The translations under genes were made by a program, and so were the position numbers. The notes beneath the pieces are model-generated. The model did no database searches and was not told the DNA's origin. It saw only the letters and a list, made by a program, of their open reading frames with translations. From Marmoricola sp. URHB0036 (GTDB taxonomy: Bacteria; Actinomycetota; Actinomycetes; Propionibacteriales; Nocardioidaceae), in NCBI RefSeq assembly GCF_000426045.1, contig NZ_AUEP01000010.1:62001-126000 (forward strand): 64,000 nucleotides of DNA, read 5' to 3'. Each line of letters begins with the position of its first letter. The stretch's first letter is position 1. This document shows positions 6,418 through 16,329 of this stretch, in pieces.

Positions 6418-7572
6418 ATGAGCAACGCAGACTGGGCCAACAGGGACTTCTACAAGGTCCTCGGGGTGGCCAAGGACGCCGACCAGGCGGCCGTCAAGAA
6501 GGCCTACCGCAAGCTGGCGCGGGAGAACCACCCCGACTCCAAGCCGGGCGACAAGGCGGCGGAGGAGCGGTTCAAGCAGATCGCCGAGGCCTACGACGTG
6601 CTGGGCGACGCCGCGAAGCGCAAGGAGTACGACGACATGCGCTCGATGTTCGCGGGCGCTGGCGGCGGCTTCCCCGGGGGCTTCCCGGGCGGCTTCGGCC
6701 AGGGCGGCGGCAGCGCCGGCGGTGGTGGCTTCGACCTCTCCGACCTGTTCGGGGACATGTTCAGCCGTGGCGGAGGCGGTGGCTTCGGCACCCGCACCCG
6801 CACCCCCCGCGCCGCCCGAGGGGCCGATGTGGAGGCCGAGGCGACGATCCCGTTCGAGGGGTCCATCGACGGCACCACGATCAGTCTCCGGCTGAGCTCC
6901 GACGCCCCCTGCCCGACCTGTTCGGGCACCGGGGGCAAGCCCGGCACCAAGCCGCACATCTGCCCGACCTGCGAGGGCGCCGGCGTCGTGGTGAGCTCGG
7001 TGGGCGGCGGCTTCTCGATGAACGAGACCTGCCCGGAGTGCCACGGCCGGCAGCTGGTCTACGACGAGGCCTGCCCGACCTGCCACGGCAGTGGTCGGGG
7101 GATGTCGAGCCGCGCGGTGTCGGCCCGCATCCCGGCCGGGGTGAAGGACGGACAGAAGATCCGGCTCAAGGGCAAGGGGGCCGCCGGCGAGAACGGCGGC
7201 CCGCCCGGTGATCTGCTGGTGACGGTGCACGTGAAGGGCCACCGGATCTTCGGTCGCAAGGGTGACAACCTGACGCTGGAGGTCCCGGTGACCTTCGACG
7301 AGGCCGCCCTCGGCTCCGAGATCAAGGTGCCCACCCTCGGTGGTTCGCCGGTGACGCTCCGCATCCCGCCGGGCACCCCCAACGGCCGGGTGTTCCGGGT
7401 CCGGGGGCGTGGAGCACCACGTAAGGACGGCACCAAGGGAGACCTGCTGGTGACTGTCGACGTGCAGGTGCCCGACGCGCTCGATGAGGCCACCAGAGCG
7501 GCCGTCACGGCGTACCGTGACGCACGGAGCGGCGCCGACCCCCGGGCCGCACTGTTCCAGGGTGGTGCGTGA
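6418..7572 (+). CDS. dnaJ: co-chaperone DnaJ
   Basis: Hsp40 partner that delivers substrates to DnaK and stimulates its ATPase. The 384-residue protein has a J domain at residues 9-75 with the HPD triad at 38-40, a long Gly/Phe-rich linker (about 80-125), four CxxCxGxG-type zinc repeats (about 165-228; the third reads CPECHGRQ, so its last glycine is lost), and the two C-terminal beta domains. It is the type I DnaJ1 form that belongs with grpE in actinobacteria. A strong GGGAGGAGGGG site precedes the ATG. Its stop overlaps the hspR start. Confidence 0.97.
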   Translation: MSNADWANRDFYKVLGVAKDADQAAVKKAYRKLARENHPDSKPGDKAAEERFKQIAEAYDVLGDAAKRKEYDDMRSMFAGAGGGFPGGFPGGFGQGGGSAGGGGFDLSDLFGDMFSRGGGGGFGTRTRTPRAARGADVEAEATIPFEGSIDGTTISLRLSSDAPCPTCSGTGGKPGTKPHICPTCEGAGVVVSSVGGGFSMNETCPECHGRQLVYDEACPTCHGSGRGMSSRAVSARIPAGVKDGQKIRLKGKGAAGENGGPPGDLLVTVHVKGHRIFGRKGDNLTLEVPVTFDEAALGSEIKVPTLGGSPVTLRIPPGTPNGRVFRVRGRGAPRKDGTKGDLLVTVDVQVPDALDEATRAAVTAYRDARSGADPRAALFQGGA

Positions 7573-8009
7573 TGGCCGGTCCTCGCGACGGCGGCACGGG
7601 TCGCGGTTCCCGGGTGCCCGGCCCTACCGTCCCGGTCTACGTGATCAGCGTGGCGGCCGAGCTCACCGGCCTGCACCCACAGACGCTCCGGCAGTACGAC
7701 CGGGTCGGCCTGGTCTCGCCGGGTCGCACCGGTGGTGGTGGGCGACGGTACTCCTTGCGCGACATCGAGCTGCTCCGCGAGATCGCCGAGCTGACGGCCA
7801 CCGGCATCGGCCTCGAGGGCGTACGCCGCATCCTCGAGCTCGAGAACCAGGTGACCGCACTCCGCAGCCGCAACCGAGAGCTGCGCGCACGCGTCGCCGA
7901 TCTCCAGAGCGCTCTCGAGTCCACCCTCAGCGCCCTGCAGGAGCAACGGCCCAACCTGCCGGTGCTGCGCCAGAGCGGACCGGTCAGCCCGTTCCGCGAC
8001 CCGCACTGA
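7572..8009 (+). CDS. hspR: heat-shock repressor HspR (MerR-like)
   Basis: Transcriptional repressor of the dnaK and clpB heat-shock genes. The 145-residue protein has a MerR-type helix-turn-helix at about residues 22-60 (HPQTLRQYDRVGLVSP), an arginine-rich wing and a C-terminal coiled coil (about 85-125). The ATG at 7572 overlaps the dnaJ stop (TGATG); a GTG three bases earlier is also possible. As the last gene of the dnaK operon it is autoregulated. Matching HAIR sites in front of dnaK and clpB are both in this window, so regulator and principal targets are all visible. Confidence 0.95.
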   Translation: MAGPRDGGTGRGSRVPGPTVPVYVISVAAELTGLHPQTLRQYDRVGLVSPGRTGGGGRRYSLRDIELLREIAELTATGIGLEGVRRILELENQVTALRSRNRELRARVADLQSALESTLSALQEQRPNLPVLRQSGPVSPFRDPH

Positions 8010-8013
8010 TCGA

Positions 8014-8035
8014 GCGCACTGGTCAGCCGGTGCGC
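8014..8035 (+). terminator. hairpin after hspR
   Basis: Nine-base arms GCGCACTGG and CCGGTGCGC (one G.U pair) with a TCAG loop begin 4 nt after the hspR stop. There is no U tract, as is common in high-GC actinobacteria. It probably ends the dnaK operon. Confidence 0.6.
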
Positions 8036-8138
8036 GGTCGTGGTCGCGTGCGCAGCATCTCAGTGACCCCCAGGACCACCAGCCGTTAGTGTCAGCGACG
8101 GTCCACGGGACCACGCGCTGCCCACAGGACGGTGAGAG

Positions 8139-9449
8139 ATGCTGCTGGAGATCGACTGGTTCTTCCAGCATGCCGACTGGTGGCACGTCCTCTCCATCCC
8201 GGTCTTCACCGGGGTCGTCGGCTGGCTGATCAACTGGACCGGCCTGGTCATGCTCTTCTCGCCGGTGCGCTTCCACGGCATCACGATCCCCGGCATGCGA
8301 CAGCTCTCCCGGGTGCTGCCGCGCAAGATCCAGGAGGTGCCCGGCTTCCTGCAGGGCGGGATCGGCTGGCAGGGGATCGTCCCGGCGCGCGCGGCCAAGA
8401 TGGGCAGCATCGCGGTGGACAAGGCGATCGCCAAGCTGGGTACGCCGAAGGAGTTCTACCAACAGCTGGAGCCCGACCAGATCGCCGAGCACATCGTGCA
8501 GGTCTTCGAGCCCGAGGTCCCGGCGATGGTCGAGCAGATCATCAGGCGCGAGCACCCGAACCTGTGGCGCGACCTTCCCGCCCGCGGTCGCACCGCGGTG
8601 ATCGCACGGGTACAGGCCCAGCTGCCGGGCGTCGTGCACCAGGTGACCGACGAGATCGGCGAGCACATCGACCAGCTGCTCGACCCGAAGATCATGGTGA
8701 TCAACCACTTCCAGAGCAACCCGGCGCTGGTGGTGCGCATCTTCCGCGACTTCGGCCAGAAGGAGCTGAACCTGATGGTCGCGTTCGGGTTCGTCTTCGG
8801 CTTCGTGCTGGGGATCCCGGTGGCGATCGTCGACCACTGGTTCGGCCAGTGGTGGCTGCTCCCCGTGCTCGGTGTGATCGTCGGCTGGACGACCAACGCC
8901 CTCGGCATGTGGCTGATCTTCGAGCCGCCCGAGGAGCACCGGATCCTCGGCATCAAGGTGCACGGGTTGTTCCTGCGTCGCCAGAACGAGGCGGCCGAGG
9001 TCTACGCCCAGATCATCGCCGACGACGTGATCACCCTGGAGAACATCGGCGACTTCCTGCTCGACGGCCCCCGCGGTGACCGCACCCGGCAGATGCTCGC
9101 CGAGGCGATGCGGCCGGCCATCGACAACGCCGCCGGGCCGGTGCGCGGCGCTGTCCGGATCGCCGTCGGCACCCGTCGCTTCGACAACATCCGCGACGCC
9201 GTTGCCGTCGAGGCCGTCGACCGCACCATCAAGCCGTTCAAGGACCCCGAGTTCAGCCGCCGCCAGGCCGAGAAGATCTACGACCTGATCGCCCAGCGCA
9301 CCAAGGAGCTCCCCCCTCGTGACTTCGTGGAGATGATGCGCTCCGCGATCAAGGAGGACGAGTGGATGCTCTACGCGCACGGCGCGATCATGGGCTTCGC
9401 GGGAGGATTGCTCCACCTGGCCATCTTCGGAGTGGGAGGAGCCACGTGA
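8139..9449 (+). CDS. DUF445-family membrane protein
   Basis: 436-residue membrane protein. A hydrophobic segment near residues 15-40 (FTGVVGWLINWTGLVMLF) recurs near 235-280 (VAIVDHWFG...GVIVGWTTNALGMWLIF), the duplicated VGWxTNxxAxxxxF-like pattern typical of DUF445 proteins. A third hydrophobic stretch ends the protein. The middle is helical and charged. Function is unknown in the family; some members are linked to the cell envelope. It overlaps the next gene by 4 bp (GTGA), so the two are almost certainly co-translated. Confidence 0.8.
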   Translation: MLLEIDWFFQHADWWHVLSIPVFTGVVGWLINWTGLVMLFSPVRFHGITIPGMRQLSRVLPRKIQEVPGFLQGGIGWQGIVPARAAKMGSIAVDKAIAKLGTPKEFYQQLEPDQIAEHIVQVFEPEVPAMVEQIIRREHPNLWRDLPARGRTAVIARVQAQLPGVVHQVTDEIGEHIDQLLDPKIMVINHFQSNPALVVRIFRDFGQKELNLMVAFGFVFGFVLGIPVAIVDHWFGQWWLLPVLGVIVGWTTNALGMWLIFEPPEEHRILGIKVHGLFLRRQNEAAEVYAQIIADDVITLENIGDFLLDGPRGDRTRQMLAEAMRPAIDNAAGPVRGAVRIAVGTRRFDNIRDAVAVEAVDRTIKPFKDPEFSRRQAEKIYDLIAQRTKELPPRDFVEMMRSAIKEDEWMLYAHGAIMGFAGGLLHLAIFGVGGAT

Positions 9450-10324
9450 GCGAGCACGACCCGTCACGACGTACGCCGGCCCTGTGGGACGAGGCGGCCG
9501 AGGCACTGCCCGGCATGACCCGGATCGCCGCACGGGCCTGGATGCGCTCGGCCGCGTGGGCCGTGGGTTCCGGAGTGCGCTCGGGTCGCCTCTTGGCGCG
9601 CTCGCTGACCAATCCCGCGGTGGCCGGTGAGCTGGTCCAGGAGGTGGCTCGTGACGTGGCCGAGGCCTCGCGCGCGGTCAACGACGTCGCCCGGGCGGTG
9701 TCGGCCGGCGTACCCATCCCGAAGGCGCTCCTCGACGCGACCGTCTCGCTCTCCTCGGTGGTGCTGGCCGACGTGACACCGAGGGGCACCGAGGCCGAGG
9801 AGAGGTCACTGCGCGAGCGAGGGGAGGAGCTGCTCCATCGGTCGCGCGACGTGTGGAGCGAGGAGGGCGAGACCCACCCCGCCTATGCCCGCATGCTCGA
9901 CGAACTCGCCCCCGACGAGGCCCGGATCCTGCTCCTGCTGCTGCGCGGAGGCCCCCAGCCGTCGGTCGACGTCCGAACCGGTGGACCGATCGGCCTGGTC
10001 AGCTCCTCGCTGGTGGCACCGGGCATGTCGATGATCGGCGCCCGCGCCGGGTGCCGTTACCTCGACGAGGTGCCGGCCTACCTGAACAACCTGTTCCGGC
10101 TGGGCCTGATCTGGTTCTCCCGCGAGCAGCTCGAGGACCCGATGGAGTACCAGGTCGTCGAGGCTCAGCCCGACGTGCTGGAGGCGATGCACTCGGTGCG
10201 CTTCCCCAAGGTGGTACGCCGGTCTATCCACCTGACGCCGTTCGGGGCCGGCTTCTGTCGCGCCTGCCTCGTCGACCCGGAGGAGACCGACGAGCTGCCC
10301 GCGCACCAGATCCCCGAGGAGTAG
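9446..10324 (+). CDS. Abi-alpha (DUF4393)-like protein
   Basis: 292-residue soluble protein starting at the GTG that overlaps the DUF445 stop. Residues about 1-115 are alpha-helical and alanine-rich; residues about 145-275 hold the recognisable part (ARMLDELAPDEARILLLL, YLDEVPAYLNNLFRLGLI, LTPFGAGFCRACL), which resembles the Abi-alpha domain named from a lactococcal abortive-infection protein. Actinobacterial members are mostly chromosomal and uncharacterised, so a phage-defence role is only a possibility. Coupling to DUF445 suggests a membrane-associated two-protein unit. Confidence 0.65.
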   Translation: MSEHDPSRRTPALWDEAAEALPGMTRIAARAWMRSAAWAVGSGVRSGRLLARSLTNPAVAGELVQEVARDVAEASRAVNDVARAVSAGVPIPKALLDATVSLSSVVLADVTPRGTEAEERSLRERGEELLHRSRDVWSEEGETHPAYARMLDELAPDEARILLLLLRGGPQPSVDVRTGGPIGLVSSSLVAPGMSMIGARAGCRYLDEVPAYLNNLFRLGLIWFSREQLEDPMEYQVVEAQPDVLEAMHSVRFPKVVRRSIHLTPFGAGFCRACLVDPEETDELPAHQIPEE

Positions 10325-10352
10325 ACGCCTCGCCCCGCCCGGGACAGCGATA

Positions 10353-10387
10353 CGCCCACCGGGAACCTGGAGGGGGTCCGGTGGGCG
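10353..10387. terminator. bidirectional hairpin between convergent genes
   Basis: Perfect ten-base arms, CGCCCACCGG and CCGGTGGGCG, with a 15-nt loop. It sits between the Abi-alpha gene (+) and the KAIL-repeat gene (-), and could stop transcription from both sides. Confidence 0.6.
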
Positions 10388-10428
10388 CGACGCTGCAGAA
10401 CAGTGGGCCTGGTGGCCCGGGGGTCAGC

Positions 10429-10635
10429 TCAGAGGATGGCCTTGTTCAGGATGGCCTTGTTGAGGATCGCCTTGTTCAGGATGGCCTTGTTGAGGATGGC
10501 CTTGTTCAGGATCGCCTTCTGGGTCGGCGCCTTGGCGCTCGCTGCCGTGGCGGCCGGTGCGGCAACGCCGAAGGACAGGGCGGCGATCAGGAGGGCGGCG
10601 AAGAGGGTCTTGACCCGGATGCGGATCCTGCTCAT
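10429..10635 (-). CDS. secreted KAIL pentapeptide-repeat mini-protein (copy A)
   Basis: 68-residue protein of unknown function. Residues 1-34 form a clear Sec signal peptide: basic start, hydrophobic core at about 10-30, and an ASA cleavage site. The predicted mature part is KAPTQ followed by five KAILN units and a final KAIL, so every mature residue falls in a five-residue register and the protein stops exactly at Leu. The A-x-L-x-x spacing resembles pentapeptide repeats, but six units are too few for a stand-alone beta-helix; the lysines make it strongly cationic. AGGAG lies 6 nt before the ATG. A paralogue (37891-38079) has the same design, which argues strongly that this is a real gene. 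Confidence 0.8.
   Translation of the reverse strand: MSRIRIRVKTLFAALLIAALSFGVAAPAATAASAKAPTQKAILNKAILNKAILNKAILNKAILNKAIL
10432..10518 (-). repeat. 15-bp tandem coding repeat (KAILN units)
   Basis: Five full 15-bp units and one 12-bp unit encode KAILN x5 plus KAIL. Units differ mostly at silent positions (GCC/GCG, CTC/CTG), so the peptide repeat is kept while the DNA drifts. Confidence 0.9.
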
Positions 10636-10718
10636 TTGTGACTCCTAGTGGTGTTGAAGGGGGTGCGTCCGTTCTATCCGGGGTGCGTTGGTAAGGGCGA
10701 TGGCTATATCGGGTCATC

Positions 10719-10740
10719 TATTTCGCCCGAGTCCGAAATA
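10719..10740. promoter_or_regulatory. inverted repeat upstream of KAIL gene A
   Basis: TATTTCG-N8-CGAAATA, perfect seven-base arms, about 85 nt upstream of the KAIL gene start. It is AT-rich against its surroundings and looks like a dimeric-regulator operator; the regulator is unknown. Confidence 0.5.
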
Positions 10741-10748
10741 TCAGGACA

Positions 10749-10773
10749 GAGTTGACTGGAACCCCCTCAACTC
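10749..10773. promoter_or_regulatory. HAIR-like site upstream of KAIL gene A
   Basis: GAGTTGA-N11-TCAACTC has exactly the half-site spacing of the dnaK HAIR. In HAIR register it reads GTTGACT-N7-CCTCAAC, one mismatch per half-site against the dnaK version. It may place the KAIL gene under HspR. Confidence 0.45.
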
Positions 10774-10800
10774 GGTGTCAGTGGGCTAGACGGATCCGAC

Positions 10801-12180
10801 TCAGGCTTGACGCGCGGCTGGGAGGGTGAGTGTGAATATTGAGCCCTGTGGGTCACGTGGGGCATATGTGACACTCCCTCCCTGTGCTTCGGCCAGGGCC
10901 CGGACCACGAAGAGGCCTAGACCAGTTCCGCGTGCGCGGGTCCCCGGAGCCCGCGCGTACTCCTGGAACAGCCGCGGGCGGAACGACTCGGGCACGCCCG
11001 GCCCGCTGTCGTGGACGGCGATGCTGACGTGCGAGCCGGTGGCGTCGACGCGCACCTCGAAGGGCGGGTCGCCGTACTTGCGGGCGTTGCTGAGCAGGTT
11101 GCCCAACATCTGCTGGAGCCGCATCGGGTCGGTGACGACCATCGGCCGGGCGTCGTTGACCACGGTGAGGTCGAAGGCGTCGTCGATGACCGAGCGCACG
11201 ATGTCCGCAGGGTCGACGTGCTCGAGCTGGACCGCGAGCACGCCGTGCTGGGCCTGACCGGCGGCGAGGAGGTCGGCCGTGATGTTGTCGAGCAACCGCG
11301 TCTGCCGGCTGATGGCGCTGAGCATGCGGGAACGCTCGGCCTCGCTGAGCTCCGGCCCGTGGATGACGAGCGTCTCCGCCACCCCCATCAGCACGCTGAC
11401 TGGGTTGCGGATCTCGTGCGCTGCCGTGGCGATGGCTCGGCGGAGAAGCTCGGCCTCGTCGCCGCTCTGTGTCTGCAGGTAGACGACCTGGTCGGTGCCG
11501 CTGTGCCGGACCGTGACCATCACCCGCCGCGGCGGCTCGCCGAGGTCCAGCAGCGTGGAGGCGTCGTGCTCGGGCTCGTCGACCAGATGCGCGGCCAGCC
11601 CCGGGGCGATGAGGGCGAGGTCGGTGTCGGGTGCGGAGAGGTCGCCGAGGAGACGCCCGGCCTCCCGGTTGGCGCGGATCACGTTGCCCCGGCGTACCTG
11701 CAGGAACCCGAACGGGGCCAGCTCGAGGTGGTCGAGCACGGCTGGGCGCTCAGCCGGATCGGCCGCACCGTCGTCGCGACCGGCCGACACCGTGGCCACG
11801 AGCGTGCGGAGCTGGGCGAGCAGCTTGCTGAGGGGCTGCCCCTTCTGGAGGTAGCCGTCGGCCCCCCCGGCGAGTGCCCGGGTGGTCATCTCCGAGGCGC
11901 CGAACCCGGAGAGCATCACCACGATGGCGTCCGGGCGGGCGCTGCGGACCAGGGGCAGCGCCTCGAGCCCGTCCATCACCGGCATGGCGATGTCGAGGAG
12001 CACGAGGTCGGGTTCGTGAGCGGCTGCCGCATCGACAGCCTCGCGACCGTTCTCGGCATGGGCCACCACATCGAACTCGCCGGTGCGTTCCAGCGCCATC
12101 GTGAGCAGGTCACGCAAGTCAGGGGTGTCGTCGACGATGAGCACCCGCAGTGGTTCGGGGTTCAGCGCGACCCCGCTCAC
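10801..12180 (-). CDS. receiver-PAS-histidine kinase hybrid
   Basis: 459-residue soluble signalling protein. Order: receiver domain (about 11-125) with acidic pair D17/D18, phospho-acceptor D63 and Lys113; a PAS-like region (about 150-235); HisKA with H255 in AHEIRNP; HATPase with N box (NLLSN, 361-365), DSGPG (391-395) and GTGLGL (418-423). The kinase domain looks intact. Having the receiver first is the reverse of common hybrids and suggests that an upstream kinase controls this kinase. It overlaps by 4 bp the gene for an ETR1-like membrane protein, its likely input partner. No DNA-binding output is visible. Confidence 0.88.
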   Translation of the reverse strand: MSGVALNPEPLRVLIVDDTPDLRDLLTMALERTGEFDVVAHAENGREAVDAAAAHEPDLVLLDIAMPVMDGLEALPLVRSARPDAIVVMLSGFGASEMTTRALAGGADGYLQKGQPLSKLLAQLRTLVATVSAGRDDGAADPAERPAVLDHLELAPFGFLQVRRGNVIRANREAGRLLGDLSAPDTDLALIAPGLAAHLVDEPEHDASTLLDLGEPPRRVMVTVRHSGTDQVVYLQTQSGDEAELLRRAIATAAHEIRNPVSVLMGVAETLVIHGPELSEAERSRMLSAISRQTRLLDNITADLLAAGQAQHGVLAVQLEHVDPADIVRSVIDDAFDLTVVNDARPMVVTDPMRLQQMLGNLLSNARKYGDPPFEVRVDATGSHVSIAVHDSGPGVPESFRPRLFQEYARAPGTRARGTGLGLFVVRALAEAQGGSVTYAPRDPQGSIFTLTLPAARQA

Positions 12181-12797
12181 GTGTCCTCACCTGCCCCGGG
12201 AGCATCGGTCCGGCCCTCGACCATCCCCTCGACCAACGCCGGGGAGGACCGGAGCGGGCGCTTGCCGAGCTGCCCGCGGTCGTCGCCGAGCAGCTCGGTG
12301 ATCATCTTGCTGGCCGAGGAGATGCTGCTGTCCAGCGCGTCCATGCCCCGCTGGCGCTCGCCGAGGTCGAGGGCCATCCGGGCGACGACCATGCCCTGGA
12401 GCACGGCGTCGTTGAGCTCCAGCGCGCGCTGCTCGCGCTCGACCTGGTCCTTGAACAGCTGGGGGCTGGCGCTGGTGCCGCCGAAGCCACCCCGCAGCGT
12501 CCAGTAGTAGACGGCGACGACGGCGCCGACGAGGTCCCAGAGGGCCAGGCCCGGCCCCCACGCCTTGCGCATCGCGAGACCCTGCTCGAGGTCGACCCCG
12601 GTGTAGGGCATCAGCATGTGCACGAAGTGGGCGCCGTGGTGGACAGCGCAGGTCAGGAAGATGGCGGCCGTCGCCGCCCCCAGGGCGTTCGTCGTCAGCT
12701 GCCGGCTCACCACCAGCGGCCGGGCGATCGCGTAGGAGATCATGAAGTAGGCAATCGAGATCACGGCGTTGCAGGCCGCCCCCAGCGTCCACCACAC
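12177..12797 (-). CDS. ETR1-like three-helix membrane sensor with DHp-like tail
   Basis: 206 residues: three membrane helices (about 8-30, 38-62, 84-101), then a coiled-coil tail (about 115-172) containing ELNDAVLQGMVVARMAL, a pattern like kinase dimerisation domains but without catalytic region. The first two helices align without gaps to Arabidopsis ETR1 (recalled from memory, offset 15): IAYF at 15-18 matches 30-33, Tyr17 = Tyr32, Cys50 = Cys65 and His54 = His69, the copper ligands. ETR1 Asp25 and Pro36 become Asn10 and Ser21, so copper binding is plausible but ethylene binding is doubtful. Extra histidines (53, 57, 60) surround the site. GGAGG precedes the GTG start. Confidence 0.72.
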   Translation of the reverse strand: MWWTLGAACNAVISIAYFMISYAIARPLVVSRQLTTNALGAATAAIFLTCAVHHGAHFVHMLMPYTGVDLEQGLAMRKAWGPGLALWDLVGAVVAVYYWTLRGGFGGTSASPQLFKDQVEREQRALELNDAVLQGMVVARMALDLGERQRGMDALDSSISSASKMITELLGDDRGQLGKRPLRSSPALVEGMVEGRTDAPGAGEDT

Positions 12798-12820
12798 GGC
12801 AGTCCTCCTTCGTCAGTCGT

Positions 12821-13531
12821 TCAGTGCACCGGGACCGTCAGGGTGAGCACGAGCAGCGTGGCTCCGGACAGGGCTGTCCAGGCCCAGGCCGCGCGTCCCA
12901 GGTCGCCCATCACCCGCGCGCGGTCCAGCAGGGGTCGGCGCAGCCCGACGAAACAGGTCGCCGCGACGACCAGCTCCCAGACCGCGCATGCGAGGTCCCA
13001 CCCGCCGACGGGCTCACGACCCAGGCCGAACGGCAGTCCCGCGGTGCGCGAGACGGTCCACAGCACGATCAGTCCGAGGCTGCCGGCGATGCCGGCCAGG
13101 AGCAGTCGGTCGCTGGTCGCGTCGAGGAGCACCAGGACGGCCCAGGCCGCCTGAGAGAGCGTGACCAGCAGAAAGAACAGGCCGAGGTACCACGCCTCTC
13201 CGAGGTGGTGGGGGAAGACGGCGGCATGGCCACCGGCGGCGGCGACGCTGCTGCCGACGGCCAGACCCCTCCAGGTGGAGGAGTCCCGGGCGACCCGGCT
13301 CGACGCCGCGAGACTCGCCTGGCCGGACGTGGTGAGCCGGCCCCCCAGCAGGGAGGCGCGCAGCTCGGCGACGCGCTGGTCGTGCTCCTGGGCGCTGGCC
13401 GGTGGGCGGTGCGTCGTACGCCGGGAGGAACGCGTGGCCGCCTGCACCTGGGGGAACAGGAGGTAGAGGACCCCCGCCAGTCCGAGGACCAGCAGGAGCA
13501 GGTGGAAGCCGTGGGCCAGCAGCCCGAGCAT
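12821..13531 (-). CDS. histidine-containing multi-pass membrane protein
   Basis: 236 residues, unknown function. An N-terminal helix (about 3-25) is followed by a charged loop and four or five more helices (about 87-235). Notable motifs are GGHAAVFPHH at the outer edge of the second helix, then LFFLLVTLSQAAWA, SRTAGLPFG and EPVGGWDL. I recall this motif order from a widespread uncharacterised actinobacterial membrane family. The clustered histidines could bind metal or haem. The start ATG at 13531 has GAGGGGAG just upstream. It is the first gene of the operon with the ETR1-like protein (23 bp on) and the receiver-kinase, so it is probably part of the same sensor. Confidence 0.6.
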   Translation of the reverse strand: MLGLLAHGFHLLLLVLGLAGVLYLLFPQVQAATRSSRRTTHRPPASAQEHDQRVAELRASLLGGRLTTSGQASLAASSRVARDSSTWRGLAVGSSVAAAGGHAAVFPHHLGEAWYLGLFFLLVTLSQAAWAVLVLLDATSDRLLLAGIAGSLGLIVLWTVSRTAGLPFGLGREPVGGWDLACAVWELVVAATCFVGLRRPLLDRARVMGDLGRAAWAWTALSGATLLVLTLTVPVH

Positions 13532-13660
13532 CGACGACTCCCCTCCTCTGGACGTACGCCGATCGGTGCGCACAGTCGCGACGGTTCTGACTGTAGGAGG
13601 ATTCGGGTCCTGGCGCTGGACGACTGGCCACGTCGACCGGTGGCGGGGACCGTGAATTTT

Positions 13661-13704
13661 CGCCAAAGTTGAGGGGAATGGACTCAACTTTGGCGCCGTT
13701 GAGG
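13661..13704. promoter_or_regulatory. HAIR operator of clpB plus an extra half-site
   Basis: Perfect 13-base arms (CGCCAAAGTTGAG and CTCAACTTTGGCG) flank a 9-nt spacer at 13661-13695; the HAIR core is GTTGAGG-N7-ACTCAAC (13668-13688). A further GTTGAGG half-site sits at 13698-13704, next to a possible -10 TAGACA (13705-13710). Confidence 0.88.
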
Positions 13705-13746
13705 TAGACAGAACACCAGCCATCCCGGACCTCTGAGGAGAACCAC

Positions 13747-16329
13747 GTGGACGCATCGAAGCTCACCTCGCGCAGCGTCGAGGTGATCAACGCTGCCGGC
13801 ACTCTCGCCGTCACCGAGGGCAACCCCCAGATCGACCCGGTGCACCTCGCGGTCGCACTGCTGCGCCAGGAGCGCGGCATCACGCCCTCCCTGCTGGCCA
13901 AGGCGGGCGCGGACGTCGCGTCGGTGAGCCGGGTGCTCGACCAGGCGCTGTGGAACCTGCCCAAGGCGTCGGGCTCCACCGTGTCCAGCCCCGCGCCGTC
14001 ACCCGCCTTCACGCGCGTGCTCGCCAAGTCGCTCGACCTGATCAAGGACATGGGCGACGACTACGTCGCCACGGAGCACCTGCTGCTCGCGCTGGCGGTG
14101 GTCGACAGCCCGGTGAAGACGCTGCTCAACGAGGTCGGGGCCGACGAGGAGGCCGTGCGGCAGGCGATCACGGCCGTGCGCGGGAACCGGAAGGTCACCA
14201 GCCAGGACGCCGAGGCGAACTACGAGGCGCTCGAGAAGTACGCCGTCGACCTGACCGCGCGGGCCGAGGAGGGCAAGCTCGACCCGGTCATCGGCCGTGA
14301 CGCGGAGATCCGCCGCGTCGTACAGGTGCTGTCGCGTCGTACCAAGAACAACCCGGTGCTGATCGGCGAGCCCGGCGTCGGCAAGACCGCGGTCGTCGAG
14401 GGGCTGGCCCAGCGCGTGGTCGCCGGTGACGTTCCCGACTCCCTCAAGGGACGCCGGGTGCTCAGCCTCGACCTGGCTGCGATGGTGGCCGGCGCGAAGT
14501 ACCGCGGTGAGTTCGAGGAGCGGCTCAAGGCCGTGCTCGAGGAGATCAAGGAGTCGGCCGGCCAGATCATCACCTTCATTGACGAGCTGCACACCGTCGT
14601 GGGTGCCGGTGCAGGTGGCGACTCCGCGATGGACGCCGGCAACATGCTCAAGCCGATGCTGGCCCGTGGCGAGCTGCACCTGATCGGTGCCACCACGCTG
14701 GACGAGTACCGCGAGCGGATCGAGAAGGACCCCGCTCTCGAGCGCCGTTTCCAGCAGGTCTTCGTGGGTGAGCCGAGTGTCGAGGACACCGTGGCCATCC
14801 TGCGCGGGCTGCAGGAGAAGTACGAAGCGCACCACGGCGTGAAGATCACCGACGCCGCGCTGGTGGCCGCGGCGATGCTGTCCGACCGCTACATCACCGG
14901 CCGCCAGCTCCCCGACAAGGCCATCGACCTCGTCGACGAGTCGGCCTCGCGGCTGCGCATGGAGATCGAGAGCTCGCCGGTCGAGATCGACCAGCTCCGC
15001 CGGGCCGTCGACCGGATGAAGATGGAGGAGCTCGCGCTCGAGCGGGAGACCGACGACGCGTCCCGGGACCGGCTGGAGCGGCTGCGCTCCGACCTCGCCG
15101 ACAAGGAGGAGGAGCTGCGCGGGCTCGAGGTCCGCTGGGAGCGCGAGAAGGCGGCGCTCGAGGGCTCCGGTGCGCTGCGCAAGGAGATCGACCACCTGCG
15201 CGTCGACGCCGAGCGCAAGCTCCGCGAGGGCGACCTCGAGGGTGCCTCGCGCATCAACTACGAGACGATCCCGGCACTGGAGGCGCAGATCGCGCAGGCC
15301 GAGTCGGCCGAGCACGCCGACGAGCGGATGGTCAGCGAGGAGGTCGGGCCAGAGGAGATCGCCGAGGTCGTCGAGGCCTGGACCGGCATCCCGACCGGTC
15401 GGCTGCTCGAGGGCGAGACCGCCAAGCTGCTCCAGATGGAGGAGATCATCGGCCGGCGCCTGGTGGGCCAGCGGGCCGCGGTCAGTGCCGTCTCCGATGC
15501 CGTACGACGCAGCCGGGCCGGCATCTCCGACCCCAACCGACCCACCGGTTCGTTCCTGTTCCTCGGGCCGACCGGTGTCGGCAAGACCGAGCTGGCCAGG
15601 TCGCTCGCCGACTTCCTCTTCGACGACGAGCGCGCGATGGTGCGCATCGACATGAGCGAGTACTCCGAGAAGCACTCGGTCTCGCGGCTCGTCGGTGCCC
15701 CTCCGGGCTACGTGGGGTACGACGAGGGCGGTCAGCTGACCGAGGCAGTACGCCGTCGCCCCTACTCGGTGGTGCTGCTCGACGAGGTCGAGAAGGCACA
15801 CCCCGAGGTCTTCGACATCCTGCTGCAGGTGCTCGACGACGGACGGCTGACCGATGGCCAGGGCCGCACCGTCGACTTCCGCAACACCCTGCTCGTCCTG
15901 ACCAGCAACCTCGGGTCGACCTACCTCGTCGACCCGCTGCTCGACGAGGAGAAGAAGCGCGAGTCGGTGCTGGCCGTGGTCCGGCAGGCGTTCAAGCCGG
16001 AGTTCCTCAACCGCCTCGACGAGATCGTGATGTTCGATGCCCTCGGCAAGGAGGAGCTCGCCCACATCGTCGACCTCCAGCTGGCGGCCTTCGACCAGCG
16101 GCTGGCCCCGCGCCGGATCACCGTCACGGTGACCGAGGCGGCTCGCCAGTGGCTGACCGACAACGGCTACGACCCGGCGTACGGCGCCCGGCCGCTGCGC
16201 CGGCTCGTGCAGACCGCCATCGGCGACCCGCTCGCGCGGATGCTGATCGGTGGTGAGGTGCTCGACGGCCAGGAGATCGCGGTCGACCACGTCGAGGGTG
16301 AGGACGAACTGCGGCTGACCGTGGTGTGA
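13747..16329 (+). CDS. clpB: disaggregase ClpB (Hsp100)
   Basis: AAA+ disaggregase that works with DnaK/DnaJ/GrpE to solubilise aggregated protein. The 860-residue protein has an N-domain (about 1-145), a first AAA module with [14 protein letters not shown] and Walker [15 protein letters not shown], the M-domain coiled coil (about 405-520), a second AAA module with [15 protein letters not shown] and [19 protein letters not shown], and the C-terminal oligomerisation domain. The GTG start has GAGGAG upstream. It is monocistronic and HspR-controlled by the adjacent HAIR; the sensor operon diverges on the other side. Confidence 0.97.

Follow-up and report, generated by a model that had tools for sequence, protein, structure and literature searches.

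A histidine-less, HisKA_3-like sensor as the candidate phosphatase half of a divided two-component system in Marmoricola

The protein ETR of a soil actinobacterium, encoded in the window (the whole stretch of 64,000 nucleotides analysed here), is a candidate for a signal-gated, kinase-dead sensor that would act on the receiver of the neighbouring kinase KIN, probably as a phosphatase, a reading to which we assign a probability of about one half. Since the phospho-accepting His has been lost from its tail but the residues for dephosphorylation are kept, ETR probably switches the receiver of KIN off, and not on.

ETR is the second of three consecutive genes on the reverse strand. The first one, MEM (12821..13531), is an open reading frame for a membrane protein of 236 residues, and 23 bp (12798..12820) separate its stop from the start of ETR. 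ETR itself (12177..12797; GTG start) is a sensor of 206 residues with an ETR1_N-like transmembrane part and a DHp-like tail, and its stop overlaps by 4 bp (12177..12180) with the start of KIN (10801..12180; GTG start), a soluble REC-(PAS-like)-HisKA-HATPase_c kinase of 459 residues. An earlier note on this DNA had described three genes with this gap and this overlap, and the coordinates confirm both.

Single-sequence searches revealed full-length relatives of ETR in 8 of the 24 genomes of the genus that were searched (including that of the window) and, at the level of the family, in approximately 28 of 245 genomes. A single-sequence scan of the named genome contigs for ETR gave no matches, but an alignment-based scan of these genomes did retrieve homologues from Nocardioides, Marmoricola, Frankiales, Actinomycetota, and one Chloroflexi MAG. 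Conservation was assessed on 35 full-length ETR loci on named contigs. The three-gene arrangement is kept in dozens of genomes, with ETR identities of 43-77%, a conservation that is well beyond chance. MEM lies directly upstream of ETR, on the same strand, in 32 of the 35 loci; in L111, a MEM homologue is present on the opposite strand to ETR, and L115 and L116 are devoid of MEM. A receiver-first gene directly follows ETR in all 34 readable loci (Nocardioidaceae, Frankiales, and the Chloroflexi MAG), and the contig ends at the remaining one (L112). In most relatives, the aligned receiver starts 12-30 nt past the ETR stop, compared with the 4-bp overlap of the window. These counts bear out the gene-order conservation that the earlier note had proposed to check. 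In many Nocardioides the three-gene set is located between hspR/dnaJ and clpB, so part of this linkage could be shared synteny; however, the loci from Frankiales and Chloroflexi, together with the paralogous modules, argue for a linkage that goes beyond synteny.

The ETR tail (residues 113-171; 12285..12461) is a two-helix, DHp-like hairpin of the HisKA_3 type, whose helices span residues 113-144 and 148-171 in the predicted model. The match of ETR to HisKA_3 in Pfam is weak and below the cut-off. When a profile of the tail was compared by hhalign with one built from 20 HisKA_3 DHp sequences of the own genome, the score was 26.2 (E 8.7e-5), and the Asn, Asp, and Gln of the tail were paired with the His, Asp, and Gln of HisKA_3, respectively. 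This score was reached by none of 300 column shuffles, the highest of which gave 17.4, while circular rotations of the HisKA_3 alignment retain the local match and are an invalid null. Against the HisKA of KIN itself, the tail scores 12.0. The central motif is N129-D130-A-V-L-Q134 (12396..12413), and the consensus of the family in this hairpin is ALELNDxVLQGLVVAKMAL. Asn replaces the phospho-accepting His in 34 of 35 ETR tails, while D130 and Q134, the two residues of DxxxQ, are found in all 35. The hairpin is not followed by a HATPase_c domain, and the chain ends past the tail; the LRSxPA segment located there (12237..12254), just before the receiver gene, contains the invariant residues R183 and A187. 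With Asn in the place of His, the tail lacks the site at which such hairpins are usually phosphorylated. The exceptional tail, L049/L087, from a single genome (a Propionibacteriales MAG), holds a His in place of the Asn (ELHDSVLQ), which could be a revertant, the ancestral state, or an error.

A search of the family with the tail profile, followed by inspection, yielded 33 further tail loci, two of them in the own genome. The receiver is fused to the tail in 14 and encoded next door in 10 (counting L247, which shows a partial receiver match only), and 9 have none adjacent. The NDxxxQ motif is present again in these tails, one of them with Asp for Asn. The best-fit clade (support 0.85) of a tree that comprised 78 receivers contains 47 of the 50 candidate receivers, along with only 2 of 28 other receivers of the own genome. 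The three candidates outside the clade are receivers encoded kilobases away from the tail, or within an unrelated protein. Of the 2 other receivers within the clade, one belongs to L269 (G000:C8, about 153.5-155 kb), a second KIN paralogue of the own genome; the 3.3-kb locus read there holds neither ETR nor MEM, and this KIN adjoins an ORF resembling FAD-dependent oxidoreductases. The genes found after ETR encode receiver-first kinases, a receiver with a membrane-anchored kinase (L075, whose ETR is truncated), a REC-PAS-GGDEF protein (L116), and a lone receiver (L054). Because ETR also precedes the latter two, it is the receiver, and not HisKA, that constitutes the constant partner of the tail. 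Single-chain PAS-PAS-(NDxxxQ tail)-receiver proteins (L079, L080, L081, and L220-L239) represent a cytosolic reuse of this tail-receiver module.

KIN matches the Pfam families Response_reg (2.2e-25), HisKA (3.7e-10), and HATPase_c (4.3e-24), all of them well over the cut-offs. Its receiver (residues 13-124; 11809..12144), which falls in the clade of the other tail-linked receivers, has D17, D18, the phospho-acceptor D63, S91, and K113 intact; the HisKA DHp (residues 246-312; 11245..11445) keeps H255 and holds Asn at H+4; and the HATPase_c domain (residues 351-456; 10813..11130) shows intact N, G1, F, and G2 boxes. KIN has, in other words, the residues of a receiver-first hybrid kinase: a functional-type REC, the HisKA His, and the N/G boxes. 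Among 27 aligned KINs, the three Asp residues, the Ser, and the Lys of the receiver are invariant, as are the G boxes; the HisKA His, the adjoining Glu, and the first Asn of the N box are each kept in all except one sequence. A PAS domain had also been attributed to the kinase in addition to these strongly matched domains, but this part is weak: the PAS-like segment (residues 152-195; 11596..11727) reaches an E-value of 0.059 with PAS_8 and is dispensable in relatives, being missing from L057/L086, L066/L113, L106, and L107. A second KIN adjoining clpB (L069:10892-12886) is probably kinase-dead, because its HisKA His-Glu pair is replaced by Gln-Gln.

The residue at H+4 carries the phosphatase activity in the HisKA subfamily (PMC3510030). 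In 26 KINs this position is occupied by Gly (20), Asn (5, including that of the window), or Thr (1); of 30 other HisKAs of the own genome, 27 have Thr there and 3 have Ser. The Gly found in most KINs fits a division of labour between kinase and phosphatase. Since the KIN of the window keeps Asn at H+4, it may be phosphatase-active itself.

According to the mechanism that we propose, ETR, MEM, and KIN would form one signalling device. The ETR tail, which probably dimerises into a four-helix bundle, would dock on the receiver of KIN like a HisKA_3 kinase on its response regulator. KIN would phosphorylate a receiver by means of H255, probably at its own D63. In response to the state of the membrane domain and its copper site, the tail would strip this phosphate with D130 and Q134, as CheZ and NarX do. 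The result would be a divided two-component sensor, with ETR as the phosphatase half and KIN as the kinase half; its final output is not encoded locally. The residues of DxxxQ are required for receiver dephosphorylation by both NarX and CheZ (PMC3510030), and Gln193 of DesK is placed to position a water molecule (PMC5231405). HisKA_3 sensor kinases such as NarX and DesK share with ETR a DHp helix that carries the Gln and the acidic residue of DxxxQ, as well as a receiver partner, but ETR holds Asn instead of the phospho-accepting His and has no HATPase. CheZ, like the tail, has DxxxQ without a phospho-accepting His and acts on a receiver; in contrast to ETR it is soluble and is not a membrane sensor, and the likeness may lie in the motif without sequence homology.

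Several observations speak against a phosphatase. Some phosphatase activities of histidine kinases need ATP, as is the case of DrBphP (PMC8292422), and ETR, lacking a CA domain, cannot bind ATP in that manner. DrBphP, a light-activated phosphatase, resembles the proposed ETR in that it is a sensor acting solely as a receiver phosphatase, although it is a full histidine kinase with His and CA domain and its activity is ATP-dependent. The tail His of L049/L087 and the Asn at H+4 in the KIN of the window also speak against it. Finally, the likeness to HisKA_3 lies under the Pfam cut-off, and the 9 further tail loci without an adjacent receiver count against this function.

The main rival, a possible if doubtful one, is that the tail works as a DivL-like reader, which binds the phosphorylated (or unphosphorylated) receiver without dephosphorylating it and couples the state of REC to the conformation of ETR, or else tethers KIN at the membrane and gates the kinase allosterically. 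In Caulobacter, the DHp of the pseudo-kinase DivL engages the receiver DivK and influences a separate kinase; DivL bears a Tyr instead of the His and senses DivK~P without adding or removing phosphate (PMC4211667). The loss of the His and the pairing with a receiver are as in DivL/DivK, and all the linkage data fit a reader of this kind. However, pure binding would not need an invariant Asp and Gln at the exact positions of DxxxQ, and DivL, which is not a phosphatase, conserves the CA domain and the other boxes of histidine kinases, absent from ETR, where the His is replaced by Asn in a HisKA_3-like hairpin. It is rather unlikely that the tail is a structural dimerisation helix only, with ETR and KIN sharing a promoter and having no physical contact: two amphipathic helices could just dimerise, and 9 of the 33 further tails have no neighbouring receiver, but against this stand the conservation of Asn, Asp, and Gln and the receivers of a single clade that are linked or fused to the tail time and again.

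The model of the earlier note, in which the tail pairs with the HisKA helices of KIN and switches the kinase directly, appears highly improbable. It is favoured by the tight coupling of the genes and by the DHp-like nature of both hairpins, but the tail resembles HisKA_3 and not the HisKA of KIN (see the scores above), lacks the phospho-accepting His, and adjoins a receiver even where no HisKA exists, as in L054, in L116, and in the fused PAS-tail-REC proteins. The broader proposal of a receptor split over several polypeptides holds in outline. 'Split receptor' is a fair description, because the genes are kept together and, in Actinoplanes and Virgisporangium, one chain combines the same ETR-type membrane domain with a histidine kinase (PAS-HisKA-HATPase-REC in Actinoplanes subtropicus). 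The contact that would join the parts changes from HisKA to the receiver, most likely for dephosphorylation and otherwise for reading. The hybrid kinases of these two genera (L117-L125) have the same ETR-type membrane domain, but carry the kinase (plus the receiver in A. subtropicus) in one chain and do not possess the NDxxxQ tail. In addition, ETR-type membrane domains are fused to GGDEF or GGDEF-EAL in L073, L121, L128, L130, and L132, which are possibly gas- or copper-controlled c-di-GMP enzymes.

If the phosphatase reading is correct, ETR may, tentatively, represent an undescribed kind of sensor, in which a HisKA_3 hairpin without His and CA domain, as the only output of a receptor, would function as a stimulus-gated receiver phosphatase opposed to a separate receiver-first kinase that lacks its own phosphatase residue in most relatives, the NDxxxQ-plus-receiver module being reused behind actinobacterial PAS sensors. 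A description of the three-gene set or of the NDxxxQ tail was not found in the open-access literature, which is not proof of its absence. Kinase and phosphatase, usually united in one sensor protein, would be split over two, the sensor retaining the phosphatase only, and this would provide a natural dissection of the DxxxQ mechanism that is directly testable. The membrane domain known from ethylene receptors would also have a second use, with its chemistry altered at the position of Asp25. Asn-Asp-x-x-x-Gln, no HATPase, and an adjacent receiver would then serve as a search rule for sensors that family-based annotation likely misses.

The transmembrane domain of ETR (residues 2-103; 12489..12794) matches ETR1_N with an E-value of 0.0013 and 19.4 bits, under the Pfam cut-off of 27; all 35 members of the family match it, the best with 2.1e-6. 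The predicted structure (35-sequence model, mean pLDDT 82.7) shows three long hydrophobic helices, which are followed by a hairpin of two helices; Foldseek of this model against the PDB gave no match with E < 0.001, and searches of the PDB sequences with profiles were uninformative. In an alignment with Arabidopsis ETR1, which serves as a lead and not as a record, C50, H54, Y17, I20, and N10 correspond, without gaps, to C65, H69, Y32, I35, and D25. C50, H53, H54, H57, and N10 are invariant in the 35 ETR sequences, so that the copper-ligand Cys and His (Cys65/His69 of ETR1) are present in all of them as C50/H54, and Asn occupies the position of Asp25 in every one. Receptors of the ETR1 type (Arabidopsis ETR1, SynEtr1, and AzoEtr1) thus share with ETR the three-helix membrane domain, the C65/H69 copper ligands, and the Y32/I35 positions; they differ from it at D25, Asn in ETR, whose chain has no GAF or kinase and ends in the His-less HisKA_3 hairpin.

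A copper-type site in this domain is plausible. That ETR is a genuine ethylene receptor, with MEM as an accessory and the system reporting soil ethylene, is unlikely; this reading concerns the input and is compatible with the phosphatase explanation. It draws on the gap-free conservation of the copper ligands and of the Tyr32/Ile35 positions, on the ethylene receptors that act in Synechocystis and Azospirillum (PMC11819568), and on the MEM relatives found in some genomes beside HMA proteins, a multicopper oxidase, and a copper P-type ATPase. Nevertheless, mutation of either D25 or C65 abolishes ethylene binding by ETR1 (PMC11819568), so the label of ethylene receptor is not earned by a family with Asn for Asp25 throughout, and the additional invariant His residues (H53 and H57) suggest a different set of ligands.

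MEM has several predicted transmembrane helices, an N-terminal HxxH (H7 and H10), and a core HAAVxPxH...R...GLPxG...D. In 34 homologues, H102, Q127, R162, and D179 are invariant, and H7, H10, and H109 almost so. MEM matches no Pfam family, and Foldseek of its model against the PDB gave no match with E < 0.001. Members of a wider MEM family are encoded in 42 of 246 genomes of the class, in most cases without ETR. Some of them adjoin GGDEF-EAL sensors, and MEM follows the ETR domain fused to GGDEF(-EAL) in L121 and L130. Members of this family also adjoin HMA-domain proteins, a copper P-type ATPase, or a multicopper oxidase (L345, L346, L349, L354, and L352). As a guess, the role of MEM would be to tune the metal site of ETR or to load it.

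A consensus promoter scan gave no match, and the sole terminator-like site is at chance level. In the window (6418-16329), the module is flanked by dnaJ-hspR (6418-8009) and clpB (13747-16329), a neighbourhood repeated in Nocardioides (e.g., L055, L059, L060, L061, L062, L066, L067, and L068), hinting at a link of the module with protein-stress genes. A gene with an Abi_alpha domain (PF14337; 9446-10321) adjoins the module and is also near it in many relatives. Between this gene and KIN lies a tandem array (10432-10534) of a 15-base unit (AGGATGGCCTTGTTC, 5.7 copies).
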